This document shows positions 49,782-62,120 of a stretch of 64,000 nucleotides of DNA, piece after piece. This DNA is from an uncultured Dehalococcoidia bacterium (lineage in GTDB: Bacteria > Chloroflexota > Dehalococcoidia > Lucifugimonadales > UBA3495), in the NCBI GenBank assembly GCA_951812535.1, contig CATOSK010000007.1, positions 1 to 64,000 on the forward strand, read 5' to 3'. The notes under the pieces were generated by a model. That model searched no databases, was not told where the DNA came from, and saw only the letters and a list, made by a program, of their open reading frames with translations. Position numbers and translations under genes: made by a program. Position 1 is the first letter of the stretch. Each line of letters starts with the position of its first letter.

Positions 49782-50471
49782 ATGACCATGGACTGGCAAG
49801 GCAAGGGCGGGGAGCCGCATCCGGAGGATGAGATGGTCTTCGTGATCTCCACCGACGAGGTGGACCGGCACGGGGACATCGTCGCGTCCGACGGGTGGCG
49901 GTTGGAGGCCTACCGCCGGAACCCGGTGGTGCTGTGGGCCCACGACTACCGGCTTCCCGTCGTGGGAAGGGCGGTGGATATCTGGACGGACACCAAGGCA
50001 TCAACGGATGGGCCGGCGGGAATGGCCGGGCGGCTGCTGGCGCGTGTCCGGTTCGCGGACACCTCCTTCGCGCAGCAGGTGGCGGGGTTGTACCGCGGCG
50101 GCTACCAGCGGGGGGTGTCGGTCGGGTTCCGCCCGTTGCGGTACGAAGAACGGCGGGACTCCAGGACCGGCGCTTTTCTGGGAGTGCGGTACCTGGAGCA
50201 GGAACTGCTGGAGGTCAGCCTGGTGCCGGTGCCTTCCAACCGGGAGGCGTTGAGCCGGAGCGGTGGCGCGGCAGAGGTCCTCCCGGCGGATAACGATGGG
50301 GAGGATGTGTTGGGAGGGGAACTGGCCGGCCTGCTGCGGGAAGCTCTCCCGGAGGCGGCTCCCGGAGCGGCATCTGCCCTTGAGGTGGAGGCGCTGCTGT
50401 CCCTCCTGCGCGGGGTACGGGTGCTGGACCCTGCTCATCCAGAAGGACGCCGAATCTATCCAAGTTGCTAA
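49782..50471 (+). CDS. HK97-family prohead protease
   Basis: A 229-residue S78-type protease that cleaves the N-terminal delta region of the capsid protein during head maturation. The catalytic His is His54 (LWAHDY), Ser is Ser113 (RGVSVGF), and the third residue lies in YLEQELLEVSLVPVPSN. FVISTDEVDRHGDIVASDGW is the usual first motif. The C-terminal 70 residues are low in conservation. It is followed after 26 bases by the capsid gene, the usual order. No portal or terminase gene precedes it. Confidence 0.9.
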   Translation: MTMDWQGKGGEPHPEDEMVFVISTDEVDRHGDIVASDGWRLEAYRRNPVVLWAHDYRLPVVGRAVDIWTDTKASTDGPAGMAGRLLARVRFADTSFAQQVAGLYRGGYQRGVSVGFRPLRYEERRDSRTGAFLGVRYLEQELLEVSLVPVPSNREALSRSGGAAEVLPADNDGEDVLGGELAGLLREALPEAAPGAASALEVEALLSLLRGVRVLDPAHPEGRRIYPSC

Positions 50472-50497
50472 CCAAGTTAAAAGAAACGGAGTTGAAC

Positions 50498-51835
50498 ATG
50501 GCATTGGGAACACAGGACCTGGAACTGATCAAGCAGGAAGTGGCGGGGATCAAGGACTTTTACACGTCCCGCATGGACGCGGAAATTCCCCCGCTGCAGG
50601 AGGAGATGGACCGCCTGTCGTCGCAGGTGGGGCAGATGCAGGAGCGGGAGCGGGAGGCGCAGCGCCGGGGCATCCTGGAGCGCGCCGCTGAGGATGGCCT
50701 GTCCCGGGTGCCCTTCGGGAAGTACCGGGGCATGGACGCGCTGGACCTGGCCTGCGCCCGCAGCGTCCTGGGGGCGCAGCTGCGGGAGCCGTCGGGGTTG
50801 AACCCCCGGATGCTGGAGGACTGGCAGTCGAACCTGAAGGCGGCGATGGACAGCACCATCGCCGGCGCCGGCGATGAGCTGGTGCCCACCGCCGAGGCGG
50901 CGGCCCTGTGGCAGGACGTGAACCTGGAGACGATGATCGCGCCCCTGTTCTCCCGGGTGGACATGCCGACCAATCCCTTCGAGATTCCGCTGCAGCTGGG
51001 GGACGTGAACTGGTACCCGGGGACGGAGAACACGGCGGTGACCAATTCCGCCCTGGCCACGGCGCGGCAGACGTTGACCGCCCACGAGCTGGTGGCCGAG
51101 GTGCCCTGGTCGCTGTCCCTGGACGAGGACGCGGTCATCGCCATGGCGGGAGAGGTGCGAAGCTCTCTGGTCCGCAACGCCGTCGAGGTCATCGACAACG
51201 TGCTGCTGAACGCCGACACCACCGCGGCCAACAACATCAACGCCGACGGAGCGGCCATCACTGCCAGCGACGCCGGGAAGGCCCAGTGGCTGGTGGGGTT
51301 CGACGGCCTGCTCCACCTGCCCCTGGTGGACAACGCGGCCCAGGCCAACAACCACAACGCCGCCGTGGACGCGGATATGTTCAACGAGGTTCGCGGGATG
51401 CTGGGCCGGTACGGAGTCCGTCCGTCGGAGCTGGCCTACATCATGGACGTGAACACCTACATCCGGTCGTTGAGCATCGACGCCTTCCGCACCCTCGACA
51501 AGCTGGGCCGCAACGCCACCCTGCTGCGGGGGCAGCTCGGTGCAGTCGAGGGAGTTCCGGTCATCGTGTCGGAGCAGATGTCCCTGGCCGACGCCGACGG
51601 AAAGGTCACCGACGACGGCAACACGGCCAAGACGGGCCGTCTGCTGATGGTCAACCGCTCCCAGTGGCGGGTGGGTTTCCGGCGGGAGCTGCTCATCGAG
51701 ACCACCCGGGACATCCAGAAGCGGCAGAACATCATGGTGGTCAGCATGAGGATCGCCTTCATGGAGCGGACCGGCGACCGCAGCAAGGCCAGGCACACGG
51801 CCCTGCAGTACAACATCACCGGCGTCGCGGCCTAG
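50498..51835 (+). CDS. HK97-fold major capsid protein
   Basis: A 445-residue shell protein. Residues 5-65 form a charged coiled coil (EMDRLSSQVGQMQEREREAQ), the delta scaffolding region normally removed by the protease. The HK97 fold follows, with LVPTAEAAALWQDVNLETMIAPLFSRVDMPTNPFEIP, an E-loop region rich in small residues, and the A-domain near AYIMDVNTYIRSL, GVPVIVSEQMSLA and IETTRDIQKRQNIMVVSMRIAF. No encapsulin-type targeting features are evident. ATG at 50498 has GGAG upstream. It is intact and has no stop or shift. Confidence 0.92.
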   Translation: MALGTQDLELIKQEVAGIKDFYTSRMDAEIPPLQEEMDRLSSQVGQMQEREREAQRRGILERAAEDGLSRVPFGKYRGMDALDLACARSVLGAQLREPSGLNPRMLEDWQSNLKAAMDSTIAGAGDELVPTAEAAALWQDVNLETMIAPLFSRVDMPTNPFEIPLQLGDVNWYPGTENTAVTNSALATARQTLTAHELVAEVPWSLSLDEDAVIAMAGEVRSSLVRNAVEVIDNVLLNADTTAANNINADGAAITASDAGKAQWLVGFDGLLHLPLVDNAAQANNHNAAVDADMFNEVRGMLGRYGVRPSELAYIMDVNTYIRSLSIDAFRTLDKLGRNATLLRGQLGAVEGVPVIVSEQMSLADADGKVTDDGNTAKTGRLLMVNRSQWRVGFRRELLIETTRDIQKRQNIMVVSMRIAFMERTGDRSKARHTALQYNITGVAA

Positions 51836-56359: not shown

Positions 56360-56785
56360 ATGCAGGAAAATGGTCATCACGCCCCAACGCCGGTACCGGT
56401 TGCATTCCTGCTCTGCGATCAGATCATCGTCGAAGCAGGATCAGGGAAGAAGACCATTGTTGGGGTGTTCGATCGCGTTGGTGTTCGACAGTTTCCCGCT
56501 ACTCACAGCCCAGCTTGGCTGTACATCAGGGTGATTGATTGTGAGGGGGAGTACGAGCATCGAATTGAATACGTGCAAGTAGCCACCCAGAAAATACTTG
56601 CTCGAGCGAATGGCACGGCTACTAGCAAGAACCGACACGTATATGCTGAGTTCGTGCTTCCCTGTCCGCCGTTACAATTGCCAGAGCCTGGCGAATACGA
56701 ATTCAGGCTTTGGTTGAACGAAAAATTCATCAGCAGAGTACGTGTCACGGCACATCCGGTTTCAGGAACGGAGGAAGGGCAATGA
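56360..56785 (+). CDS. DUF6941 family protein
   Basis: A 141-residue beta-rich protein. VAFLLCDQIIVEAGSGKKTIVGVFDRVGVRQFPA near the start and GEYEFRLWLNEKFISRVRV at the end follow the DUF6941 pattern, whose function is unknown. The middle contains WLYIRVIDCEGEY. GC is lower than the neighbours. Its stop overlaps the start of the HicB-like gene by four bases (ATGA), so the three following genes are translated as one unit. The Shine-Dalgarno sequence is weak. Confidence 0.7.
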   Translation: MQENGHHAPTPVPVAFLLCDQIIVEAGSGKKTIVGVFDRVGVRQFPATHSPAWLYIRVIDCEGEYEHRIEYVQVATQKILARANGTATSKNRHVYAEFVLPCPPLQLPEPGEYEFRLWLNEKFISRVRVTAHPVSGTEEGQ

Positions 56786-57246
56786 CGGCAATCCCATCAG
56801 TTAGGGTGCTGGGCCCAGGCACCACCGAAGCCCAAGAACACAGTATTGAAAACGAAACCAACTCGGAATCGATATCCCACGATGGGCAGGAGGTACAAGG
56901 ATCTTTGGCGATGCCGGATCGCCAGACCGAACAGCCTTCCCACCGGAATACTCCTGCCGAAAGTGCGGCGGATTATCACCATATCGCCATCGGGAGCCTC
57001 TTGGACACACGGTTGCGGATGCGTGGGACATTAACCCTGGAAATCGAACAAGAAGGGGAGTTCTATATCGCCAAGTGCGATGAACTCAACGAGTTCGGGT
57101 ACGATTACGACCCAATCGGTGCTGTGCAAGATGTTCGAGTCTCCATTGCCGAACTCTACTGGGAGTTGAAAGAAAACCAACACCGCCTCGGCGCAGATTT
57201 GACGGAGACTTGGCGAAGGTTATCGGAGTTAGTCTACGAAGCATGA
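56782..57246 (+). CDS. HicB-like antitoxin-type protein
   Basis: A 154-residue protein. The first 80 residues are low-complexity and polar. The rest resembles a HicB partial-RNase-H fold: LTLEIEQEGEFYIAKCDELNEFGYDYDPIGAVQDVRVSIAELYWELKE, with the characteristic strand pair and the helix that counts as antitoxin. No C-terminal ribbon-helix-helix is evident. It overlaps its neighbours by ATGA on both sides. The toxin role of the next gene supports an antitoxin role here. Confidence 0.6.
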   Translation: MTAIPSVRVLGPGTTEAQEHSIENETNSESISHDGQEVQGSLAMPDRQTEQPSHRNTPAESAADYHHIAIGSLLDTRLRMRGTLTLEIEQEGEFYIAKCDELNEFGYDYDPIGAVQDVRVSIAELYWELKENQHRLGADLTETWRRLSELVYEA

Positions 57247-57515
57247 CCATTCGTGCCAGGGACTTCGACCTATTGGTTCGTAAATTCGGTTTTCAGACCC
57301 GCGAATCTCGAGATATCCACGCTTGGTTTGAGCACGACGGCAAAGTCGTAGTTCGAACTAAGCGGTCTCGCACTCCCCGAAGCAGAGATCTGCCTTTCCA
57401 GCACAACATACGGCAGCAAATGAAGCTCTCCGAGGATGAACTTCGGCAGGCATTGCAATGTACGCTGGGCAAGAGCGACTACGTGGAGCTTCTTCAACGT
57501 AAGGGTGTGATTTAG
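57243..57515 (+). CDS. HicA-like toxin-type protein
   Basis: A 90-residue protein resembling HicA/YcfA double-stranded-RNA-binding toxins but longer. FDLLVRKFGFQTRESRDIHAWFEHDGKVVVRTKRSR matches the HicA core, with His in DIHAWF at the place of the catalytic His (SHHxY in classic HicA). The C-terminal 40 residues (IRQQMKLSEDELRQALQCTL, SDYVELLQRKGVI) are an extra helical part. The ATG at 57243 overlaps the HicB-like stop. Order antitoxin-toxin is the reverse of the most common hicAB order. Confidence 0.6.
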   Translation: MTIRARDFDLLVRKFGFQTRESRDIHAWFEHDGKVVVRTKRSRTPRSRDLPFQHNIRQQMKLSEDELRQALQCTLGKSDYVELLQRKGVI

Positions 57516-57712
57516 CCTCCCCCTTCCTTGTCCCTCCCCTCCCAACGGGGGTATCATAAGCGGACGATTCCCCCGGGTTTTCCGTTAAGCAGAGCCCTCA
57601 GCCCCCTTGGCCAAGCTTGCGCCCGCGTAGGCGGGCGTTACCCGAATTGGGGGCGGAAGCGCCGGCCTTTTGGGACAAACCCCTCCAATTTTCACCCTTG
57701 GGAGGTCCTGTT

Positions 57713-59212
57713 TTGCCCGATAAAGTTTATGACGTGATAGTCGTGGGGGCCGGCAACGCCGCCCTCAGCGCGGCCATCGCCGCCAGGGAACGCAGCGAAG
57801 ACATCCTGGTCGTCGAGAAGGCCCCGGAATACTTCCGGGGCGGCAACACCTACTTCACCGGCGGCATCATCCGCTTCGCCTTCGACGGCATCGACGACAT
57901 CAAGGCCCTCATCCCCGACATGTCCGAGGCCGAGGAATCCTCCATCGAGGTCGGCAGCTACACCGAGGATGACTACTACGATGACATGATGCGGGTCACC
58001 CACGGTCTGACCGACCCGGAGCTGGCCCAGATCCTCGTCAGCCAGTCCCATCCGACGATGAAGTGGCTCCAGGAACACGGGGTCCGGTTCGTCCTGTCCT
58101 TCGGACGCCAGGCCTTCAAGGATGGCGACAAGTTCCGCTTCTGGGGCGGGCTGGTCGTCGAGGCCGTCGGCGCGGGCAAGGGCCTGTCCGACCAGCAGTT
58201 CGACGTCTGCCAGCGCATGGGAGTGGATGTCCGCTACGCCACCCAGGGCGTCAACCTCATCCAGGACCAGAAGGGACGGGTCAGCGGCCTGCGGGTGCTG
58301 GGGCCCGACGGCTTCGAGGACATCCAGGCCCGTTCCGTTGTACTGGCCGCGGGCGGATTCGAGGCCAACGCCGAGATGCGCTGCCGCTACCTCGGCCCCG
58401 GCTGGGAGACGGTCAAGGTGCGGGGCATCCCCTACAACACCGGCGACGGCATCCGCATGGCCCTCGACGTGGGCGCCCAGTCCCACGGCCACTGGAGCAG
58501 CTGCCACGCGGTGGCCTGGGACATGAACGCTCCCGCCTTCGGCGACCGGGTAATCACCGAGCTCTTCCAGAAGCACTCCTACCCCTTCGGTCTCATCGTC
58601 AACCTCAACGGCGAGCGGTTCCTGGACGAAGGGCTGGACTTCCGCAACTACACCTACGTCACCTACGGGCGGGCCCTGCTGACCCAGCCCCAGGGCCTGG
58701 CCTTCCAGGTCTTCGACGAGAAGGTCAAGCACCTGCTCCGCGACGAGTACTGGATCTCCCAGGCCACCATGGCCCAGGCCAACACCCTGGAGGAACTGGC
58801 GGCGCGGCTGGACATCGACCCGCAGGGACTGGTCAACACCGTCAACGAGTACAACGCCGCCGTCCAGACGGATATTCCCTACAACCCCACCGTCAAGGAC
58901 GGCCGCCGCACCGAGGGGCTGGCGGTGGACAAGACCAACTGGGCCGAGACCATCGACACGCCTCCCTACTACGGCTGGGCGGTGACCACGGGCATATCCT
59001 TCACCTTTGGCGGAGTCAAGATCAACAACCGGGGGCAGGTCGTGACCAACGCCCAGGAACCCATCCCCGGCCTCTACGCCGCCGGCGAAATGGTCGGCGG
59101 ACTCTTCTACTACAACTACCCCGGCGGCTCCGGCCTGTCCGCGGGAATGGTCTTCGGCCGCCTCTCCGGCACCTCCGCCGCCGAAGACGCCAACCTCCTC
59201 AAGGACATCTAA
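57713..59212 (+). CDS. FAD-dependent tricarballylate dehydrogenase-like enzyme
   Basis: A 499-residue flavoprotein of the fumarate reductase/succinate dehydrogenase group, closest to TcuA, which oxidises tricarballylate to cis-aconitate. FAD-binding GAGNAALSAAIAARE (11-25) and VVEKAPEYFRGGNTYFTGG, SVVLAAGGFEAN in the middle, and the C-terminal FGGVKINNRGQV, GLYAAGEMVGGLFYYNYPGGSGLSAGMVFGR. The start is a TTG at 57713 with GGGAGG seven bases before it. No tcuB or tcuC homologue is nearby. The real substrate may be another polycarboxylate or an enoate. Confidence 0.88.
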   Translation: MPDKVYDVIVVGAGNAALSAAIAARERSEDILVVEKAPEYFRGGNTYFTGGIIRFAFDGIDDIKALIPDMSEAEESSIEVGSYTEDDYYDDMMRVTHGLTDPELAQILVSQSHPTMKWLQEHGVRFVLSFGRQAFKDGDKFRFWGGLVVEAVGAGKGLSDQQFDVCQRMGVDVRYATQGVNLIQDQKGRVSGLRVLGPDGFEDIQARSVVLAAGGFEANAEMRCRYLGPGWETVKVRGIPYNTGDGIRMALDVGAQSHGHWSSCHAVAWDMNAPAFGDRVITELFQKHSYPFGLIVNLNGERFLDEGLDFRNYTYVTYGRALLTQPQGLAFQVFDEKVKHLLRDEYWISQATMAQANTLEELAARLDIDPQGLVNTVNEYNAAVQTDIPYNPTVKDGRRTEGLAVDKTNWAETIDTPPYYGWAVTTGISFTFGGVKINNRGQVVTNAQEPIPGLYAAGEMVGGLFYYNYPGGSGLSAGMVFGRLSGTSAAEDANLLKDI

Positions 59213-59227
59213 GGGGGAGGTCACGCT

Positions 59228-59716
59228 TTGGCGGACTACGATTTGTTCATCAACGGGATATTCCGCAGTGTTCTGGAAGAGATACTGGAAACTCAGTCTG
59301 TTAATCCCGACCATACGCTCTTCCTACAGCCATATAAGGGCGTTCCTATAGCAATGCTTAGGGACAACCCTCCATCAGTTGAAGACCCGGTCAAACTCTA
59401 CGCGTCCACTAGTGATGAGCTCGGCTCCGTTTCCTATACCGCCGAAATAGTCGGATGGGAGGATAAGACGAAGTTATCTCAGGGGCGGCGGGCTGAGGTA
59501 GAGAGGTCGCTTGATTCCCTGCAGCCCAATGAAGGTGGGTTGTACAACTACTCAAGTTCGGGCAAGTCCAGCTTGAATCTGATAAGCATAAGACGGCTGG
59601 TCAAGTTGCTCAATCCGTTTCCCGTTGCTGAGTTAATCAAGGCTAGTGACGACAAGCCGTATGGTATACGTAGCCAACCCGGCGGTTGGTCGCCTGTGCG
59701 GAAAAGGGACACCTAA
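59228..59716 (+). CDS. Hypothetical protein, lower-GC
   Basis: A 162-residue protein I do not recognise. It begins MADYDLFINGIFRSVLEEIL and includes LFLQPYKGVPIAMLRDNP and VSYTAEIVGWEDKTKLSQ, a beta-rich part that loosely resembles EVE/ASCH-type RNA-binding domains, then a C-terminal helix with Ser/Asn-rich stretches. It lies 15 bases after the TcuA-like gene but has lower GC, so it is probably part of the accessory block with the ATPase pair. TTG at 59228, GGGGGAGG upstream. Confidence 0.5.
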   Translation: MADYDLFINGIFRSVLEEILETQSVNPDHTLFLQPYKGVPIAMLRDNPPSVEDPVKLYASTSDELGSVSYTAEIVGWEDKTKLSQGRRAEVERSLDSLQPNEGGLYNYSSSGKSSLNLISIRRLVKLLNPFPVAELIKASDDKPYGIRSQPGGWSPVRKRDT

Positions 59717-59774: not shown

Positions 59775-60767
59775 ATGATCGAAACCCTCGAAATCACCAA
59801 CTTCAAGTCGGTGAAGCACCTGACGCTTCCCTGCAAGCGGTTCAACGTCTTCATCGGCGAACCCAACACCGGCAAATCCAACATCCTGGAGGCGCTGGGC
59901 CTGGTGTCGTTTGTGGGAGCCTGGCAATACCAGCCTGGCATCAAGCTGGACGGATTTGTCCGGCATGAGCGAATGTCCAACCTGTTCTACGATGAGCAGG
60001 TGGCGGAGCCGCTGAGCGTGCGGTGCGACGATGCGGCCCTGGTTCTGGCGTACCGGGACGGATGCTATCGCGGCGAGTACACCAGCGCAGGGGAGACAGC
60101 GGCCGCGATCTCGGGAGACCGGCGCACCATTACTGAGGTGGACTGTTCCCGGGAAGAGACACTGGCCCCGGTCAGGTTTTACCGCTCTCCCGCCACCGGG
60201 AATTTCCAGCCCTCCTCCTGCGATTACCTGCTGCCCCCGAATGGCAGCAACCTGCCTTCGCTGCTGATGCGGAACGCCGAACTGCGGCACACCATCAACC
60301 TTCCCTACAAGGCATTGGGGCTCCGGTTGGAAGCGGGGTCACAAGAGAACAAGATCGAAGTCGTCAGGAAAAGCGACGGTGCAACAATCTCTTACCCTTA
60401 CTCCCAGACTTCGGAGACGCTGCAGCGCCATTCCTTCTATATAGCGGCCATCGACTCAAACCGGGCTGCGGTTCTGGTATTCGAAGAACCGGAGAGCCAC
60501 ACCTTTTCACCCGATGCAGTTTTCCTCGCTGAAGTCATCGCCCGGGATGATGATGAGAACCAGTATTTCATCACCACCCATAGTCCCGATTTCCTGATGA
60601 CGCTGTTGTGCAAGGCGCCGCAGGATGATCTGGCAATCAACATCGTTCACCATGACGATTACTTGACCAAGGTGAAACAGCTTTCGCCGGAGGACCTGCC
60701 TGAACTGTTTGAGCTGGACGTTTTCTCCAACCTGGAGCGGTACCTGAAACCTTGGCTTTATACGTAG
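59775..60767 (+). CDS. AAA15/OLD-like ATPase
   Basis: A 330-residue ABC-type ATPase of the OLD/RecF-like group. The domain starts MIETLEITNFKSVKHLTL, Walker A is GEPNTGKSNILEALG (32-46), Walker B is AAVLVFEEPESHTF, and the downstream TTHSPDFL is the switch His motif. There is no Toprim domain in this protein, unlike OLD and GajA. The stop overlaps the next gene by 16 bases. The following gene has a Toprim-like acidic pattern, so the pair looks like a split OLD or PARIS-like system. ATG at 59775 begins the domain. Confidence 0.85.
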   Translation: MIETLEITNFKSVKHLTLPCKRFNVFIGEPNTGKSNILEALGLVSFVGAWQYQPGIKLDGFVRHERMSNLFYDEQVAEPLSVRCDDAALVLAYRDGCYRGEYTSAGETAAAISGDRRTITEVDCSREETLAPVRFYRSPATGNFQPSSCDYLLPPNGSNLPSLLMRNAELRHTINLPYKALGLRLEAGSQENKIEVVRKSDGATISYPYSQTSETLQRHSFYIAAIDSNRAAVLVFEEPESHTFSPDAVFLAEVIARDDDENQYFITTHSPDFLMTLLCKAPQDDLAINIVHHDDYLTKVKQLSPEDLPELFELDVFSNLERYLKPWLYT

Positions 60768-61219
60768 AATGCAAGCCCGATGAAACCCTGGCCAGAAAAT
60801 TAGTCCATCGTCGGGAGATCATCCACCTGAGAAACAAGAGCGAGGTCCTCAAGGAGCTGGAGCGCCACTCCATTGGAATTGCGATGGTTGACGAGGACCC
60901 GCTATTTGGCTCCCCAACCCAGTTGAATCGCTTCTACGCAGCCGAAGATCTGAGCGGGTTGGGGCTCCTGACAATGAAGCACCGGACCAGCGCCACCTCG
61001 GTGATTCTCATCCGCCCCAGGTTGGAAGAGTGGATCATAAGCGCGAGCCAGGAATCGGGGATCAGGTTGGACGACCGGCGGTATAACCTTCCAACCACAC
61101 CCCGAAGACTTCACCGCGAGATAACCCGAGACCTCCGCAAGCTCAACCGCCTCCTCGACGACCTCCTCTCCGCCCAATCACCCCGCCTCCTCCGCCTCCA
61201 AACCCTCCTTGCCGGATAG
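60752..61219 (+). CDS. Small Toprim-like partner of the ATPase
   Basis: A 155-residue protein. The first strand ends in an acidic residue (LYVECKPDETLARKLV), and about 40 residues later comes IAMVDEDPLFGSP with D-x-D. An early Glu followed by DxD is the order found in Toprim nucleases. The C-terminal half is helical and basic (RLHREITRDLRKLNRLLDDL). It overlaps the ATPase gene by 16 bases and starts with TTG at 60752 (an in-frame start for which the ribosome binding site lies in the ATPase gene). PARIS systems also pair an AAA15 ATPase with a Toprim-type (DUF4435) effector, but this one is shorter. Confidence 0.6.
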   Translation: MALYVECKPDETLARKLVHRREIIHLRNKSEVLKELERHSIGIAMVDEDPLFGSPTQLNRFYAAEDLSGLGLLTMKHRTSATSVILIRPRLEEWIISASQESGIRLDDRRYNLPTTPRRLHREITRDLRKLNRLLDDLLSAQSPRLLRLQTLLAG

Positions 61220-61265: not shown

Positions 61266-62120
61266 ATGACCACCCCTTCCGACCGAACCGACCTCCTCGA
61301 ACGCGAGGCCCGAGAACTCCTCGCCTTCCTCCAGACCCTCTCCCCGGAGGCATGGCATACCCCCAGCGCCTGCGCGGGATGGACCGTCGGCGACGTGGTG
61401 GGCCACCTGACCAGCGTCGACTTCGCCAACCGTCTGCTGCGGGGATTGGACGGCGACTACTCCCCGCCCGAGGGGTCTCCTCCCCCGGAGCGCCACGACG
61501 AGGACGCCTTCGCCCGCAGCATCTACCAGCGGGCCATCGACACCCGGGAACGGCTGGGGGATGGTCTCCTGGATGATTTCACCCAGCGCGTCGAAGAGGC
61601 AATATCCCTCTTCCGCCAGGTCGGCCCCGGCCAGTGGGACAACCTGGTCTACTGGCCCCCCGGCCCCATGTCGGTACAGACCCTCCTGACCCAGCGCATC
61701 GCCGAGCTGACCATGCACACGTGGGACATCCGGTCGCGGCTGGAGGACGATTACCACCTCTCCGATGGGAGCGTCGCCGCCCTGCTGGACACGGTGGACC
61801 GGGCCGCCCGCCGGGCCTTCCGGCCCGACCCCAATCTCGGCGGACGATACGCCCAGCGGTACCGGTTCCTGATCACCAGTCCCACGGAGCGGGTTTTCGA
61901 CCTGGTCCTCAGCGACGCCGTGGCGGAGATCATCCACCACCCTTCCGGCCAGTCCGATGAACCCGCCCACGTCACCTTCCAATGCGACGGCGAAGCCTGC
62001 GTCCTCATCCTCTACGGACGCCTCACCCCGGACGGCGCAGTCTACGCCCGGCGACTGTCCGTGGCGGACGGCGACGCCTACCTGGCATCATCCTTCCAGG
62101 AGAAGTTTGTTGGGGGGTAG
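61266..62120 (+). CDS. Maleylpyruvate isomerase / DinB-like protein
   Basis: A 284-residue protein of the DinB/mycothiol-dependent maleylpyruvate isomerase group. The N-terminal four-helix bundle has LLAFLQTLSPEAWHTPSACAGWTVGDVVGHLTS, with His in the metal-site helix, and later TLLTQRIAELTMHTWDIR supplies the second His pair. The C-terminal part is an SCP2-like domain (AHVTFQCDGEACVLILYGRLT). The enzyme class acts on thiol conjugates; the true substrate is unknown. Its start at 61266 has AGGAGC upstream. High GC places it with resident DNA. Confidence 0.8.
   Translation: MTTPSDRTDLLEREARELLAFLQTLSPEAWHTPSACAGWTVGDVVGHLTSVDFANRLLRGLDGDYSPPEGSPPPERHDEDAFARSIYQRAIDTRERLGDGLLDDFTQRVEEAISLFRQVGPGQWDNLVYWPPGPMSVQTLLTQRIAELTMHTWDIRSRLEDDYHLSDGSVAALLDTVDRAARRAFRPDPNLGGRYAQRYRFLITSPTERVFDLVLSDAVAEIIHHPSGQSDEPAHVTFQCDGEACVLILYGRLTPDGAVYARRLSVADGDAYLASSFQEKFVGG

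Follow-up and report, generated by a model that had tools for sequence, protein, structure and literature searches.

The defence system PARIS is built on an ATPase, AriA, whose rings hold the effector AriB until a viral protein triggers its release and tRNA cleavage (PMC11455837); release of the effector by a phage protein followed by tRNA cleavage is also described in an excerpt of PMC12409363, and the DUF4435 family (PF14491) serves to detect the system (excerpt of PMC9122126). AAA proteins paired with separate TOPRIM_OLD toxins have been studied in neutralisation assays, in a work that names AbiL as an abortive-infection pair and calls the RloB effector OLD_TOPRIM-related (excerpt of PMC10440598). 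A further relative, Cran1, the class 5 OLD protein, appears in an excerpt of PMC12796447 as an apparently essential nickase that is conserved across Sulfolobales and has no role in antiviral defence. Here we describe two overlapping genes from an uncultured Dehalococcoidia bacterium, located in a 64,000-nucleotide stretch of contig CATOSK010000007.1 (the whole of this stretch is called “the window” below). They encode an ATPase and a predicted Toprim-like protein of 155 residues, which an earlier reading of the DNA (the original prediction) had presented as a split OLD/PARIS-like defence candidate. The pair is a real, conserved and unannotated two-gene family, a new variant among the split ATPase+Toprim pairs, with a predicted function, and it occupies a fixed chromosomal site. 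The features of the pair are the following:

59775..60767, + strand: ATPase gene, 330 aa, AAA_15/AAA_21 (SMC/RecF/OLD-type ABC head); ATG at 59775, TAG stop at 60765-60767
59856..59882, + strand: Walker A GEPNTGKSN, residues 28-36; G28, G33, K34, S35 and N36 identical in 121/121 aligned ATPases
60411..60428, + strand: ABC-signature-like SETLQR, residues 213-218; S213 in 112/121, R218 in 116/121
60471..60494, + strand: Walker B VLVFEEPE, residues 233-240; E238 in 115/121, E240 in 121/121
60576..60590, + strand: switch motif THSPD, residues 268-272; T268 in 121/121, H269 in 111/121
60752..61219, + strand: predicted mini-Toprim gene, 155 aa; TTG start at 60752, 16-base overlap with the ATPase gene
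60767..60781, + strand: E6 and D10 (LYVECKPDE); E6 in 180/182, D or E at position 10 in 180/182; expected to correspond to E400 and E404 of BpOLD
60890..60898, + strand: D47-E48-D49 (AMVDEDP), the Toprim DxD; D47 in 180/182, D49 in 181/182
61016..61033, + strand: P89-R-L-E92-E-W94 (PRLEEW); P89, L91 and E92 in 182/182, W94 in 181/182

The coordinates, the 16-base overlap, Walker A, Walker B and the switch are in the sequence as originally described. The counts for the ATPase refer to 121 listed and aligned ATPases, those for the small protein to an alignment of 182 rows, i.e. the window protein and its 181 best-listed relatives.

In this second alignment the only acidic columns reaching at least 95% identity are E6, D10, D47, E48, D49 and E92. 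An early Glu followed by a DxD within 155 residues had been pointed out in the original prediction. Both prove conserved together with D10 and E92, the full set E6, D/E10, D47, D49 and E92 being kept in 177/182 rows; two of the five rows that lack it are small proteins without their N-terminus. The invariant E92, which is an additional acidic residue absent from the earlier list, lies in the PRLEEW motif, where a helix opens (91-101 in the model) after the last strand. Judged from the alignment, the conservation of these acidic residues is not due to chance. It forms a metal-ligand pattern (E, E/D at +4, DxD, later E), again in 177/182 rows, and the metal-ligand residues of BpOLD are E400, E404, D455, D457 and E508 (excerpt of PMC6755086). 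E92 is expected to correspond to E508, a correspondence that, like the others, is drawn from order, spacing and predicted secondary structure rather than superposition and does not extend to T506 and K562. The alignment thus supports a residue set of the OLD/RNase M5 type of nucleases.

The structure model of the small protein, a check named in the original prediction, gives a Toprim-like predicted fold. Four of the best five rows of the fold comparison are OLD, GajA (twice) and a PARIS chain, and these align over 126-136 of the 155 residues. The small protein could instead be a Toprim-shaped but non-catalytic accessory subunit (structural or regulatory), or have another alpha/beta fold that resembles Toprim. 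We consider this very unlikely: the five expected metal-ligand positions are kept in 177/182 rows and are five of the six acidic positions with at least 95% identity, while the OLD, GajA and PARIS rows span most of the protein. Other comparisons were negative. Foldseek returned no match at E<=0.001 against the PDB and the viral library, Pfam found no domain in the window small protein, and DUF4435 is absent from the 25 of 37 Pfam families listed for 72 small proteins. Profile-profile comparison, which the original prediction had also proposed, did not bear out a relation to Toprim or DUF4435 sets: the small-protein alignment gave non-significant results with nine standalone OLD-TOPRIM proteins (probability 0.3%), three DUF4435 proteins (15.3%) and fused OLD C-termini (0.8%). 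In the non-significant OLD-TOPRIM alignment E6, D10 and L91-E92 met the VE-xxxD and LE motifs, which we do not count as evidence. Among the 72 small proteins, weak matches to HisKA (7/72) and to Csa3, AriA, mREase_IV and mad4 (1-4/72) were put down to chance or insufficient strength, and matches of the small-protein profile to spike proteins were taken as chance.

Pfam bears out the claim that the window ATPase has no Toprim domain. Its SETLQR motif is what we take, from general knowledge of ABC heads, to be signature-like. With PADLOC its best match is AbiLi (58.3 bits), next to 57.3 bits for AriA; PDB sequence-search matches to an antibody and to an alpha-glucosidase were taken as chance. 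Two related genomes, G020 and G032, carry E238N in Walker B and H269Q in the switch, which removes the glutamate of the one and the histidine of the other; each change occurs in 6/121 listed ATPases. Such alleles may be unable to hydrolyse ATP.

Co-conservation of the two genes, on which the original prediction leaned, holds in most cases. A collection with one genome for each of 84,980 species, scanned with the small-protein alignment, yielded 54 loci. In 51 of them the ATPase precedes the small gene on its strand (in a few it is cut off by the contig end or spans two frames), and the two never share a reading frame. The exceptions are L047, where a masked stretch directly precedes the small gene, L060, whose small gene lacks its middle part, and L062, whose small gene is split over two frames. 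A usable start codon, taken by the nearest-start rule, allowed the junction to be measured in 49 of the 51 loci: the genes overlap in 37, and in 27 of these by four bases. Closer to the window, 99 genomes (its own included) contain a full-length small gene in eight cases, with the ATPase adjoining in 8/8; some of these eight are also counted among the 54 loci. G003 has a C-terminal fragment of the small gene only. The ATPase is present in 9/99 relatives and in 5/400 genomes of the phylum, the window genome being included in both. Among the 99, G092 has the ATPase alone; among the 400, G433 has the pair, G117 an ATPase with a small gene bearing an in-frame stop, G267 an ATPase in two pieces, and G372 an ATPase with no small gene. 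In total 11 of the 13 ATPase-positive genomes have the small gene in some form. Solo ATPase relatives, whose occurrence the original prediction had set as a test against itself, thus exist, as a minority. The pairwise distances of the two proteins are correlated (r 0.80, n 47, 0/2000 shuffles as high), part of which would come from shared descent anyway. This comparison and the ATPase tree used 45 of the 54 loci plus the window and one virus; nine loci that are broken, truncated, masked or partnerless were excluded (L023, L034, L038, L041, L045, L047, L060, L062 and L063).

We tested whether the pair belongs to PARIS, Gabija, fused OLD or AbiL/RloAB and adopted none of these assignments. Like PARIS, the pair joins an AAA_15/AAA_21 ATPase gene to a separate, predicted Toprim-type gene. 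It differs in its partner, which is not DUF4435/PF14491 (a family that matches nothing in the window's genome) and has about half as many residues as the aligned PARIS chain of 306; in addition the ATPase scores no better against AriA than against AbiLi. AbiL (AbiLi-AbiLii) and RloAB share the architecture of an ATPase with a separate effector, and AbiLi is the best PADLOC match, but the small protein has no match to RloB/PF13707, a distinction made by Pfam search only. The OLD proteins of classes 1-3 and GajA resemble the pair in the fold of the ATPase head and in the E, E/D, DxD, E set of residues. There both domains belong to one protein, whereas here they are in separate frames in the window and in all 51 two-gene loci; PF20469 (OLD-like_TOPRIM) matches neither the window small protein nor anything in the window's genome. 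In contrast to Gabija, the gene after the window pair is MDMPI/DinB-like and not a UvrD-like helicase. The likeness to MADS is weak: MAD3 matches the ATPase N-terminus with 32 bits against a cut-off of 420, mad4 matches 4/72 small proteins (best E 0.0065), both far under family level, and the mad2 model matches 2/128 neighbours at other loci. Cran1, an archaeal OLD-family ATPase-nuclease, provides a lead to a role outside defence and differs by having both domains in one protein. Thus OLD, GajA and PARIS, the relatives originally named, are supported by the fold rows and the residue set, but the choice was too narrow since AbiL/RloB and further pairs are published (excerpt of PMC10440598).

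Other Toprim genes occur in relatives from the phylum. Standalone OLD-like_TOPRIM genes, 199-281 codons long when read from stop to stop and sharing a conserved LEDEL[IV]R motif, are found at L169, L172, L173, L175-L177, L179, L181 and L182, with no A2-like ATPase within the stretch fetched. At L185 a 236-codon OLD-like_TOPRIM frame overlaps an upstream same-strand ATPase frame with a weak A2 match (E 7e-6); this looks like a second, unrelated split ATPase+Toprim pair.

The family is widely distributed. Among 7998 candidates scored, 1260 relatives of the small protein were found at E<=0.001, and none of the 120 listed has a Pfam domain. Record titles of bacteria with the pair include Chloroflexota, Bacteroidota, Spirochaetota, Verrucomicrobiota, Planctomycetota, Stahlbacteria, Elusimicrobia and others; those of archaea include Methanophagales, Methanosarcinales, Thermococci, Thermoplasmata, Baldrarchaeota, Freyarchaeota and Aenigmatarchaeota. 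In the ATPase tree Syntrophaceae, Methanoperedens and Stahlbacteria fall together in a well-supported clade (SH-aLRT 98, quick tree), which suggests transfer between domains, bearing in mind that bins may include contigs of foreign origin. Geoglobus ahangari pleomorphic virus 1, an archaeal virus (named in an excerpt of PMC12451623), bears the pair as gp15-gp16 between two winged-helix regulators and is the sole match in 50,697 phage records. Plasmid records gave no match. IMG/VR yielded no relative in scans that started from the small protein, from the ATPase or from the protein of the virus; the scans used exact peptide patterns and can miss distant copies. Searches of open-licence literature, judged by title and start of abstract, turned up no paper on the pair family, and absence there is not absence in print.

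The site of the pair in the chromosome has two borders that lie outside the module:

57617..59212, + strand: left border, FAD-binding dehydrogenase (FDH), PF00890; it also borders the pair in G007, G020, G027, G032 and G035
61266..62120, + strand: right border, MDMPI_N/DinB-like gene, PF11716; these relatives likewise have an MDMPI-like gene after the pair

We compared the window (G000) with 20 fetched regions, 19 of which have FDH. Six sites are occupied (G000, G007, G020, G027, G032 and G035), one (G003) holds a remnant, and six are empty (G002, G005, G009, G018, G026 and G029), FDH being followed by the MDMPI-like gene after ~43-116 bases. Seven sites, with FDH and no MDMPI within the stretch fetched, are uninformative. 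G007 belongs to the same family as the window genome; in one genus, g8, all five members among the 99 genomes are occupied.

That this fixed site carries highly diverged alleles is the most interesting new observation. The FDH of g8 members is 95-99% identical. Leaving aside the close pair G020-G032, identity between members is 47-62% in the ATPase and 38-57% in the small protein, and synonymous sites are at or near saturation. As FDH itself is unusually conserved, PurA, PGK and neighbouring frames were used as controls; frames were read stop to stop, and two short rows that look like wrong-frame matches, G000-G020 (n 107) and G000-G032 (n 214), were not used. Among G020, G027 and G035 nine of ten other frames are 86-96% identical and the tenth 78%, compared with 49-62% for the ATPase and 40-57% for the small protein. 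The synonymous divergence (dS) of this background is 0.38-1.00 for G020-G027 (identity 78-96%), 0.75-0.96 for G020-G035 (88-89%) and 0.49-1.10 for G027-G035 (86-89%), while that of the pair is 1.6-3.1 or saturated in these three comparisons.

Over ATPase codons 1-40 all six comparisons among G007, G020, G027 and G035 show 100% identity and 80-87% equal third positions; at alignment codons 81-160 they show 17-38% identity and 18-47% equal third positions (40-codon windows). At the nucleotide level homology in g8 extends from FDH across the intergenic stretch and 145-235 bases into the ATPase; beyond, it is present in patches only. It resumes close to where the small gene ends, within the second half of that gene for G035-G007, or towards the end of the ATPase for G020-G027. 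The nearest relative also differs by gene: G027-G035 share 62% in the ATPase and 42% in the small protein, G020-G027 51% and 57% respectively. Our reading of these patterns is that G020, G027 and G035 bear alleles that were replaced or exchanged, as G007 probably does too. The G020-G032 pair fits plain vertical descent, with a dS of 0.163 for the ATPase and 0.133 for the small gene in a background of 0.11-0.19. Its ratios of nonsynonymous to synonymous divergence are ~0.19 for the ATPase, ~0.29 for the small gene and 0.08-0.13 for the background; from this one closest pair of relatives, both genes appear constrained by purifying selection and somewhat faster than the background.

Some further elements were observed around the site. 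In the 113-125 bases between FDH and ATPase, L140 (G020), L141 (G027), L142 (G007) and L144 (G035) share a repeat-like stretch, CCCTTCGACAAGCTCAGGA, together with a hairpin rich in GGGGCC, a possible terminator; in G032 a hairpin-like part is all that is left. The stretch or the hairpin could aid recombination at the site. The window genome alone among the six occupied sites has an extra gene between the dehydrogenase and the ATPase (59228-59716, 162 aa, TTG start); no family match was found for it, and relatives with 41-52% identity occur in six other of the 99 genomes, none of which has the pair. Positions 49782-51835 and their surroundings contain genes for a phage-type head maturation protease and major head protein (PHROG 617, 80, 10), so that the pair may lie a few kilobases beyond the end of a prophage or related element. 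At 56785-57515 two overlapping small genes, without significant match in Pfam or PHROGs, resemble by eye what would presumably be a HicB-HicA toxin-antitoxin pair.

From the presence, absence and highly diverged alleles at one site, which were not visible to the earlier reader and are the strongest indirect sign of a defence role, together with the fold and the residue set, we propose that the pair is probably a conflict module, antiviral or toxin-antitoxin, in which the ATPase restrains a minimal Toprim nuclease. A chromosomal role of the Cran1 kind, i.e. a split OLD nickase active in replication or repair and unrelated to viruses, would agree with the precedent of an archaeal nickase outside antiviral defence (excerpt of PMC12796447), with an ATPase fold common to SMC, Rad50 and RecN, and with the mainly housekeeping Pfam families of the neighbours. 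We hold it to be quite unlikely, because essential genes are not expected to be patchy (9/99 relatives, 5/400 phylum genomes), to leave empty and decayed sites in relatives, or to diverge in g8 beyond their background; presence, absence, decay and allele divergence fit PARIS and the TOPRIM_OLD pairs better.

Plain addiction is an unlikely explanation too, although it accounts for several facts. The small protein would be a nuclease toxin and the ATPase its antitoxin, persisting through post-segregational killing, as a two-gene overlapping operon, variable presence at one site, the lack of a clear defence island and the TOPRIM_OLD toxins put through neutralisation assays with AAA antitoxins (excerpt of PMC10440598) would allow. 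It does not lead one to expect alleles of congeners that diverge with breaks inside both genes. In PARIS, moreover, single deletions are non-toxic (excerpt of PMC9122126), and PMC11455837 nevertheless files the system as toxin-antitoxin, so that the boundary between toxin-antitoxin and defence is not sharp. Within the conflict module that we favour, antiviral defence is more likely than pure addiction.

Several results weigh against a defence module with exchanged alleles. The background compared with G007 is already diverged (dS 0.73-2.4, identity 60-88%), which makes the overall contrast weak and leaves only the sharp break inside the ATPase to speak for replacement there. Between the window and g8 the pair (44-58%) is not more diverged than the fastest other frame (48-50%), so that the allele in the window, taken alone, gives no sign of replacement; the right-hand MDMPI genes are also only 66-90% identical within g8. 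Two of the 13 ATPase-positive genomes, G092 and G372, lack the small gene anywhere in the assembly. The PARIS row of the fold comparison is tied with gephyrin-type folds. Lastly, the original prediction of a defence candidate is backed by fold, residue set and co-conservation but not by its setting: no clear defence-island signal was seen among 128 neighbours of 32 loci, a survey with no matched control set.

These neighbours were two genes on each side, of 110-800 residues, from a simple reading-frame caller. Their Pfam families are mainly metabolic or housekeeping with a few of defence type, each listed family having at most three members (25 of 164 families listed). The most frequent PADLOC matches (25 of 148 families listed) are helicase models (3/128), and a type II methyltransferase and ShosA are single strong matches. 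DEAD/DEAH helicase-like genes also lie downstream of the pair, at a distance of up to ~1 kb, at individual loci: L045, L052 and L053 have them on the strand of the pair, L014, L023 and L025 on the opposite one. In L021, L037 and L038, labelled Thermococci, a gene that by eye is macro-domain-like lies directly downstream in the same direction.

In the proposed mechanism the ATPase and the small protein would bind each other, by analogy with the sequestration of AriB by AriA, and the ATPase would keep the nuclease in check until infection sets it off, possibly by sensing a viral product or a nucleotide change. The nuclease, once released or activated, would use two metals to cut DNA or RNA (tRNA if AriB-like, DNA nicking if OLD-like) and so halt growth of the infected cell. 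The diversity of alleles would be the mark of an arms race, kept up by recombination between conserved flanks. A bolder version is that the pair represents a sixth, minimal class of OLD, ancient and both bacterial and archaeal, at a polymorphic immune locus comparable to the major histocompatibility complex. Its core (the ATPase from about residue 60 and most of the nuclease) would be exchanged among species at a single address, through recombination in two conserved parts, the N-terminus of the ATPase and the C-terminus of the nuclease. We regard this as tentative and rather doubtful, the weaker divergence contrast having lowered its odds; if true, each lineage would recognise a different viral trigger.

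The family described here adds an unannotated two-gene member to the split ATPase+Toprim systems. Its effector of 155 residues, about half a PARIS chain, is convenient for biochemistry. The fixed site with its empty, decayed and diverged forms permits a direct test of whether the allele sets the trigger or the target, and the archaeal relatives, among them the virus-borne copy, offer a route to the question of virus-virus conflict.
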